Source: Gemmatimonadota bacterium
Lineage (GTDB): Bacteria > Gemmatimonadota > Gemmatimonadetes > Palauibacterales > Palauibacteraceae
NCBI GenBank assembly: GCA_022820995.1
Contig: JAJEEM010000058.1
Location: 62,001 to 126,000 of the forward strand
Direction: 5' to 3'
Length of the DNA: 64,000 bases
Shown: piece after piece, positions 12,244 through 14,409 of the stretch
Layout of the letters: each line of letters begins with the position of its first letter
Numbering within the stretch: position 1 is the stretch's first letter
The notes under the pieces: model-generated
The model's input: only the letters and a program-made list of their open reading frames with translations
The model's database searches: none
What the model was told of the DNA's origin: nothing
Translations under genes and position numbers: made by a program

Positions 12244-12271
12244 GACGCTCGTTCCGGCGCGGCGGAGCGTC
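12244..12271. terminator. Candidate bidirectional hairpin between convergent genes
   Basis: GACGCTC (12244-12250) and GAGCGTC (12265-12271) form a perfect 7-bp stem with a 14-base GC-rich loop, between the transporter stop and the selenoprotein stop. There is no T-run, so intrinsic termination is uncertain. Confidence 0.35.
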
Positions 12272-12824
12272 AGCGAGAACCGACGATCATGGCCAGGATC
12301 GGGTTGATCGCTTCCTCGGCCAAGCGCTCGAGTTCGGCGGCGGTACGGTTCTGAATCGGATGCGGGACCCAGACGATTCCGGGCTCGAAGCCGAGCGAGC
12401 GCGACTGGCTGCGGGCGGCCGTCTCGAACTCCGTCGTGACGACGAAACAGCCGGGGATCCCTCGTTCATCCAGGTCTCTGAGGTCGTGCAGACCGCACGA
12501 CGTGCAGGACCCTCAGTCGGCCAATGCCTGCACGACGACATCGGCTTCCGCCGCGATCCTCTGCAGGAGTTCAGTAGGCGCCCGCCGCGCGTTCGTCGGC
12601 TTGTCCGTGCGGATCGTCTCGATGCCGAGGGCGTCGAGGCGCGTCTTCACGTGGTCGAGGAACTCGTCGCTGCGGAGCTTGCCGATCCCCTGGAGCGCGA
12701 CGACGCGGCCTTCGAGCGACGGCGGAGGCGTGCGCCGGGGCCGCATCTCCGGGGCGAGTTCGGAGGTGGGATCGTGGAGGACGGTGGCCGGCGTTGCCGG
12801 GCCCGTCGCGGTCGGAGCGGTCAT
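12270..12824 (-). CDS. UGSC-family selenoprotein with in-frame UGA read as selenocysteine
   Basis: A 184-residue protein is obtained if TGA at 12515-12513 is read through as selenocysteine (residue 104). Before it lies MTAPTATG...VVALQGIGKLRSDEFLDHVKTRLDALG...EADVVVQALAD. After it the frame continues as GSCTSCGLHDLRDLDERG, IPGCFVVTTEFETAA, GIVWVPHPIQNR and LERLAEEAINPILAMIVG to a TGA at 12272. The residues U-G-S-C are the signature of the UGSC family, which has selenocysteine or cysteine at this site. The downstream part is clearly protein-like, with a family-like VPHPIQN segment. It overlaps the upstream thioredoxin-like gene by ATGA. A selenol-based redox role is likely; the substrate is unknown. 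Confidence 0.9.
12472..12515 (-). promoter_or_regulatory. Bacterial SECIS element with selenocysteine UGA
   Basis: Directly after the UGA (12515-12513) the mRNA folds into a two-part hairpin. A lower stem pairs GGGTC (bases 1-5 after UGA) with GACCT (37-41). An upper perfect 7-bp stem GTCGTGC/GCACGAC (12501-12483) carries the 5-base loop GGUCU at bases 19-23 after UGA. From memory, the E. coli fdhF SECIS has the same GGUCU loop at the same distance. This is the expected binding site of SelB. Confidence 0.85.
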
Positions 12825-14272
12825 GTCTCGATCTCTCTCGTGATGGGGTGTGAGTGCTGCCAGGCGCGGCCGCCGGGCCAGCCGGCCAGGATCGCGGAGT
12901 ACAGACCGGCCGCGCCGCCGGCCCGGGCGAGAAGCAGTCCGCCGGGCGGAAACTTCGGCACGTGGCGGCGCGTCTCCGAGTCCGGCACGCCCTCCGCGAG
13001 GCCCCCGGCGCCGCGGACCACCTCGCCCAGCGGCCGCGTCGTCGCCTCCAGCAGCGCCTCGGTGATCCGCGCCCGGTCCCAGCCCGCCTCCCGGTAGATG
13101 GCGTAGTGTTCGGGCGAGAGGAGCAGCACCGCGTGCGCCCACTCGCAGATCTTCGGGTGGCAGACGGCGAGCAGGCACGCCGCGAGCGACGCGGTGAGTT
13201 CTTCCGGCGTGCGGGACGCCTGGTCCATGATCCCCTGCACGCCCTCGCCCTGGAACAGAGTGACGGCGTCCGTCCCCAGCGCGACGCCGCGCGAGACGGA
13301 AAGCGGCTCCCACTCCTCGTCCGACTCGTCCTCGGCGAAGCAGAAGGTGTACTTGCTCGGCGCGCCGAAGGTGGAACGGTCGATCTCGCCGGGGCGTCCG
13401 CCGCCCACGTTTTGCACGATGAGGTTGAGGGCGCGCCCGATGGTCGCGTTCGCCCGGTTCCCCTGTCCGAGGACGTTGAGCCCCGAGTTCATCCCGATCC
13501 GGCGCGCAATGGGGCCGTTCACGATGATGAGGGGGGCCGTGAAGCAGGTGCTGCACAGGATCCCGTGCAGCGTGAAGTCCGGATCGAGCGCCGCCTCGAG
13601 CGCCGCGAGCAGCACGGGCATGTACTCGGGCTTGCAACCCGCGAGCACGGCGTTGATCGCCACCTTCTCCACCGTGCATTCCGCATAGTCCGGCGGCACG
13701 GCGCCCACCATTTCGTCCGGGGCCCGCGACGTGCCCGCGAGCATCCGGAGGATCCGCTCCGGGGTCGGGGGGACGACCGGAAGCCCGTCCGTCCAGCCGC
13801 GGTCGAAGCACGCTTCCACGGCATCGGCGTGCGGCTCCAGCGCCACCCGCCTTGCCTCGATACCCGTATCCCCGAAGCGCGCGCGCAGGCGCTCGGCGGC
13901 GCCCGGTGCTAACGACAGGGAACCGCAACCCGGGCGGAACGCCGCCAGATCCTCCCCCAGATCGGGGATCGACGTCAACCCACGCCACTCCTCGCGGTCC
14001 CAGCCGACGGCGCGGCCCGTCTCCCGTCCATCCTCGAAGCGCACGAGCGTGGGGACCGTCTCGATGTCGAGCCGGAAGGAGTGTTCGAGTTCCGTGTCGT
14101 CGATCACGCCCGGGACGGCGGCGGGGAAGTCCGGATCGTCCTGGCTGAAGACGGTGAGGCCGTCGCCTTCGGCGGAGAGCCGTTCCAGCACGGGTTCGAC
14201 GAGTTGACAGGTGGGGCAGTCCCGCTTCACGACGACCGCGAGACCGTCCTCCGGCAGCGGAGCGTGTTTCAT
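12821..14272 (-). CDS. Thioredoxin-like CxxC protein, partner of the UGSC selenoprotein
   Basis: A 483-residue protein with an N-terminal thioredoxin-like fold: VVVKRDCPTCQLVEPVLERL with Cys19-Pro-Thr-Cys22, then DIETVPTLVRFEDG, which has the thioredoxin cis-proline context. The long second part (DGLPVVPPTPERI, CTVEKVAINAVLAGCKPEYMPV, GILCSTCFTAPLIIVNGPIARRIGMNSG) resembles a uncharacterised family seen beside UGSC proteins and in some oxidoreductase clusters. It contains several more cysteines. Stop and next start overlap as ATGA, so it should be co-translated with the selenoprotein. An alternative ATG lies at 14305. Confidence 0.75.
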   Translation of the reverse strand: MKHAPLPEDGLAVVVKRDCPTCQLVEPVLERLSAEGDGLTVFSQDDPDFPAAVPGVIDDTELEHSFRLDIETVPTLVRFEDGRETGRAVGWDREEWRGLTSIPDLGEDLAAFRPGCGSLSLAPGAAERLRARFGDTGIEARRVALEPHADAVEACFDRGWTDGLPVVPPTPERILRMLAGTSRAPDEMVGAVPPDYAECTVEKVAINAVLAGCKPEYMPVLLAALEAALDPDFTLHGILCSTCFTAPLIIVNGPIARRIGMNSGLNVLGQGNRANATIGRALNLIVQNVGGGRPGEIDRSTFGAPSKYTFCFAEDESDEEWEPLSVSRGVALGTDAVTLFQGEGVQGIMDQASRTPEELTASLAACLLAVCHPKICEWAHAVLLLSPEHYAIYREAGWDRARITEALLEATTRPLGEVVRGAGGLAEGVPDSETRRHVPKFPPGGLLLARAGGAAGLYSAILAGWPGGRAWQHSHPITREIET

Positions 14273-14409
14273 GTCCCCAACTATAACACGGAAGGGACCG
14301 TCCATCTAAGCTGCGCCCGCCGCCCGCATCACGTTGACATAGGCCGCGACAACGGGGTACTTCGTTGCCCTGTGCCTGCCGATAGCCGAGGAGGTCGTGC
14401 GGAGGACGC

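Follow-up and report, generated by a model that had tools for sequence, protein, structure and literature searches.

A putative SECIS hairpin with an fdhF-like apical loop follows the in-frame UGA of a UGSC-family selenoprotein gene in Candidatus Palauibacter

The UGSC gene and the selenocysteine machinery

The minus strand of the window, by which we mean the whole 64,000-nucleotide stretch of DNA analyzed here, carries a 184-codon gene with a single TGA in frame, at codon 104 (12515-12513), and a hairpin directly after this TGA. The features of the locus are as follows.

12270-12824, minus strand: UGSC-family selenoprotein gene, with the ATG at 12824, the stop TGA at 12272-12270, 184 residues and selenocysteine (Sec) at codon 104
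12513-12515, minus strand: in-frame UGA, predicted from comparison with homologs to be read as Sec, the first residue of the UGSC motif
12472-12512, minus strand: putative SECIS region, the 41 nt after the UGA, from sequence, folding and comparison
12483-12501, minus strand: upper hairpin GUCGUGC/GCACGAC with the GGUCU loop, positions 12-30 after the UGA, from pair conservation
12490-12494, minus strand: apical loop GGUCU, of which the invariant G20 and U21 correspond to G23 and U24 of Escherichia coli fdhF (counted from the U of UGA)
12821-14305, minus strand: partner gene of 494 residues with a thioredoxin-like N-terminal domain and an unnamed C-terminal domain, upstream of the UGSC gene and overlapping it by ATGA

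The translation around the Sec codon reads ...VVQALAD-U-GSCTSCGLHDLRDLDERGIPG... and contains the U/C-G-S-C motif as ALAD-U-GSC. The 184-residue protein matches Pfam PF24696 with 112.9 bits (gathering cut-off 25) and scores 117.7 bits against NCBIfam NF041046 (curated cut-off 125) when the query is scored with Cys replacing Sec. The genome contains one UGSC gene, whose match has one TGA inside, and its nearest named relatives come from Candidatus Palauibacter and Gemmatimonadetes metagenome-assembled genomes. The UGSC-containing selenoproteins have been known since at least 2008 and constitute a major bacterial selenoprotein family of ocean samples (Zhang and Gladyshev 2008, PMC2398784). The gene product is a member of this known, uncharacterized family (PMC2398784; PF24696; NF041046), with which it shares the protein family, the Sec-Gly-Ser-Cys motif and the UGA at the Sec site; it stands apart as a Candidatus Palauibacter member scoring slightly below the NCBIfam cut-off. 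Membership in the GrdB/PrdB family was considered and rejected, as the similarity consists of weak local matches near the Sec site, none of them over the GRDB curated cut-offs. The best E-value with the GRDB profiles among 30 UGSC members was 9.6e-5 (to TIGR01917), and the window protein reached 16.3 bits against 602.2. The genome gave no match to PF07355 and we found no reciprocal hit between UGSC and GrdB/PrdB proteins.

The same genome encodes SelA (492 bits), SelB (367.7 bits, with the SelB winged-helix domains) and SelD (371.6 bits), each above its family cut-off, together with a tRNA-Sec (79.7 bits, above cut-off) located about 5 kb from selB. A selB gene was also found in all ten of the other sampled genomes with a TGA-type UGSC gene. 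Candidatus Palauibacter, a marine Gemmatimonadota lineage, accordingly possesses a complete selenocysteine system; the order-level genome paper on the Palauibacter group does not mention selenium (PMC10469786). The SelD gene of this genome (L075, C78:177779-178705) itself bears an in-frame TGA, in the context SHGAG-U-ACKL and followed by a hairpin of its own, which marks it as a second selenoprotein.

The hairpin and its likeness to known SECIS elements

Read along the minus strand from 12512 to 12472, the 41 bases after the TGA consist of GGGTC, CTGCAC, GTCGTGC, GGTCT, GCACGAC, CTCAGA and GACCT. A first-pass annotation, made from the DNA letters and naming no strand, had described an upper stem GTCGTGC/GCACGAC, a lower stem GGGTC/GACCT and a GGUCU loop at positions 19-23, and all three are present as described. 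Its suggested folding check also held: RNAfold forms both stems in a 48-nt stretch at -21.6 kcal/mol (z -2.31) and retains both within 191 nt of native context. Folding energy alone is weak evidence because 6 of 200 shuffles were as stable as the native stretch.

The same annotation considered the chance of such a structure immediately after a UGA to be low, which is true of the exact geometry and less so of the window as a whole. A 5-nt NGU loop at exactly 19-23 on a stem of at least 7 bp followed 11 of 72,504 TGAs in Markov sequence of the same composition (~1.5e-4 per TGA), and a single one of the 1,214 TGAs in the window, namely that of the UGSC gene. The window-wide chance expectation of this geometry is nevertheless ~0.2; the hairpin by itself is suggestive, and the conclusion stands on the gene and the comparative data. 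No Rfam family matched the hairpin. A loose-pattern search of the genome returned 30 matches, compared with 17 for a reversed control, among which no further selenoprotein gene was recognized. When the window was searched for further TGAs that might be read through, three weak candidates came up, none with a recognized conserved motif.

The general bacterial SECIS model, bSECIS, describes a loop of 3-9 nt with a G in the first two loop positions, an upper stem of 4-16 bp, a distance of 16-37 nt between UGA and loop, and an energy at or below -7.5 kcal/mol (PMC13188914). With its 5-nt loop, 7-bp stem, 18-nt spacing and the folding energy given above, the UGSC element lies within all of these limits. 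It also agrees with every constraint of the bSECISearch consensus, including the loop N1-G-U-N-N2, whose N1 and N2 can pair (PMC13188914), and has nothing that falls outside the model.

The likeness to the E. coli fdhF element is closer in the loop than in the stem. As the first-pass annotation had stated, fdhF carries the same loop at the same spacing: its SECIS string, with GGTCT at 19-23 after the TGA, is present in 5,369 genomes out of 5,426 from E. coli, and both of the matches listed fall under the fdhF annotation. Both elements read GGUCUGCAC at positions 19-27 after the UGA, that is, the GGUCU loop followed by GCAC, with the loop G and U at equal positions. The key bases reported for fdhF are G23, U24 and the bulged U17; loss of U17 or G23 reportedly abolishes readthrough, and the bulged U17 is described as essential for binding by E. 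coli SelB (PMC8659212). The UGSC element has the counterparts of G23 and U24 (G20 and U21 after the UGA) but lacks the bulged U17, and instead of the bulged fdhF stem it forms a perfect 7-bp stem with a closing C-G pair. Position 14 after the UGA, which corresponds to fdhF position 17, is C in all 54 distinct TGA-type homologs (see below) and pairs in each of them with G28. Moreover, many UGSC relatives have an AGUNU loop, unlike the GGUCU of fdhF. The description "fdhF-like" therefore holds for loop and spacing and fails for the bulge, and by its sequence the element appears to be a bacterial SECIS with an fdhF-like loop rather than a full fdhF-type SECIS.

The invariant C-G pair at the place of the essential bulged U17 (PMC8659212) raises the alternative that the hairpin is a true SECIS unreadable by an E. 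coli-type SelB, a bulge-less variant matched to the SelB of its own lineage. We consider the chances of this alternative to be just short of even. It refines the reading as an ordinary bacterial SECIS rather than opposing it, and the general bSECIS model does not require a bulge (PMC13188914). Because they lack U17, these genes allow a direct test of which features SelB recognizes outside E. coli.

Conservation and covariation among UGSC genes

For comparison, we assembled 79 TGA-type places from Gemmatimonadota and Alpha-, Beta- and Gammaproteobacteria, together with seven more distant homologs from haloarchaea, Actinomycetota and a Variovorax that have a Cys codon (TGC/TGT) at the Sec site. 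The Cys homologs give this comparative SECIS set a built-in control. Some loci represent one genome taken from two collections, and counts were made on distinct sequences, giving 54 distinct 45-mers after the TGA; these are mutually related, so that 54 is not a number of independent events.

The inner 5-bp stem (pairs 14-28, 15-27, 16-26, 17-25 and 18-24) is kept in 54/54 TGA-type homologs, as are G20, U21 and U23, while positions 19 and 23 form A-U or G-U throughout. Pair 13-29 persists in 51 of the 54. Pair 12-30, at the base of the upper stem, persists in 35 and is broken in 19. The lower stem GGGUC/GACCU, which the first-pass annotation had counted as part of the element, is not conserved among relatives: it holds in most Palauibacter, and each of the three inner pairs is disrupted in 23 to 28 of the 54 homologs. 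When folded as an isolated 45-mer, 7 of the 54 homologs have a competing fold of lower energy.

Could the hairpin merely be a by-product of the conserved protein sequence (TSCGLHD) and high G+C, whether or not the UGA is recoded by other means? The residues flanking the UGA are indeed nearly invariant, and the published structural model is loose: about three quarters of the window TGAs precede a 4-bp stem whose loop begins with G. We therefore kept the amino acids unchanged and drew synonymous codons from the UGSC genes' own usage. The expectation per 54 sequences was 9.4 for the stem, 2.9 for the loop GU and 0.5 for both, whereas both were observed in 54; when the identical stem geometry was shifted to other places along the gene, it fitted 7/63 at most. 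The loop codon (codon 7) is GGT in all 24 Gly cases and AGT in all 30 Ser cases, although GGT accounts for 7% of Gly codons and AGT for 4% of Ser codons elsewhere in the UGSC genes, and for 5% and 4%, respectively, in the window. The Cys homologs drop both, with TGC, TGC, AGC, ACG, TCC, GGC and ACA at codon 7; none of the seven has NGT there, and the loop GU is lost in all of them. The comparison of loops across UGSC genes that had been proposed for checking the element thus came out in its favor. A mere by-product is already contradicted by these counts and seems very improbable to us, and stem and loop appear to be conserved beyond the protein constraint.

The substitutions within the stem follow the pairing. 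Both members of pair 15-27 are third codon positions that vary synonymously (Ser TCG/TCA and His CAC/CAT), and among the 54 TGA-type homologs the pair is G-C in 23, G-U in 20 and A-U in 11, with no A-C. On a protein tree built without the hairpin columns, column 15 shows about four changes and zero independent contrasts against pairing; about three independent contrasts are supported, a number with which a sign test cannot reach 0.05. In two highly divergent TGA-type members, L077 and L102, pair 18-24 is G-C instead of C-G; there, the Cys has become Trp and the next codon is altered along with it.

That the UGA might be a real stop, produced by sequencing error or gene decay and leaving two ORFs or a truncated protein, is the least credible reading, hardly worth entertaining, even though the assembly is a draft of 78 contigs and the ORF finder breaks the gene in two at the UGA: the identical TGA occurs in all same-genus genomes with the gene (16/17) and in homologs from other Gemmatimonadota and Alpha-, Beta- and Gammaproteobacteria, the reading frame stays open and conserved before and after it, and the genome holds the full Sec machinery.

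We regard it as almost certain, judging from the sequences, that the hairpin is an ordinary bacterial SECIS element of the known UGSC selenoprotein family, as the first-pass annotation had it, because codon-level conservation, covariation, loss of the loop in Cys homologs and the complete Sec machinery all agree. Both this kind of SECIS and the family are already known. With the ribosome at UGA codon 104, the hairpin would hold SelB-GTP and Sec-tRNA(Sec) on the mRNA, chiefly by way of its apical G and U, and selenocysteine would be delivered in place of termination by release factor. The predicted product is a 184-residue α/β protein in which the Sec-Gly-Ser-Cys motif starts a helix and is probably a redox centre, served by the thioredoxin-fused product of the gene just upstream.

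The partner gene and the UGSC protein

The AlphaFold2 model of the UGSC protein has a pLDDT of 95.2, and Sec opens the helix following a strand. A fold search with this model returned the common flavodoxin/Rossmann-like arrangement with many unrelated families tied, and therefore no function follows from it.

Where a locus includes sufficient flanking DNA, tblastn nearly always finds a homolog of the partner gene adjoining UGSC. The thioredoxin-like similarity of its N-terminus is weak by sequence and clearer by model, for which the alignment was made with the plasmid loci left out. Its unnamed domain has no significant Pfam or NCBIfam match, and a fold search with the C-terminal domain gave no convincing match. 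In Arthrobacter, thioredoxin reductase, thioredoxin, an unnamed protein and UGSC are encoded by separate neighbouring genes. The gene order points to a possible thiol-dependent redox system. The conserved partner gene is a starting point for learning what one of the commonest selenoproteins of the ocean does.

A bolder proposal would be that UGSC genes have a distinct, bulge-less class of SECIS, read via the loop GU (with A-U or G-U at 19-23) and not via U17, and that the UGSC protein and the thioredoxin-fused partner are the two halves of an undescribed redox enzyme, the partner being itself a selenoprotein in some lineages. We consider this proposal conceivable but rather doubtful as a whole.

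Several loci of the comparison set deserve mention in their own right. In a partner homolog at L068 (2541-3998, plus strand), an in-frame TGA takes the place of the conserved PG-C-GS cysteine at residue 119 of the frame, followed by a possible hairpin GCTGCC-GGG-GGCAGC; the TGA may mark a second family of selenoproteins or may be a sequencing error. L065 contains two tandem UGSC genes in one genome, whose Sec codons lie at 2338 and 4292, and a partner homolog precedes each of the two genes. The TGA-type UGSC gene of L102, on the Acidovorax sp. T1 plasmid p2-T1 (2986-3276), is annotated as a "hypothetical protein" ending at the TGA and is a mis-annotated selenoprotein on an IncP plasmid. The haloarchaeal plasmids (L097, L098, L101 and L103) carry Cys-type UGSC genes beside partner homologs, in the neighbourhood of genes for CoA transferase, CoA ester lyase, phosphosulfolactate synthase or TRAP transporters, which hint at the pathway.
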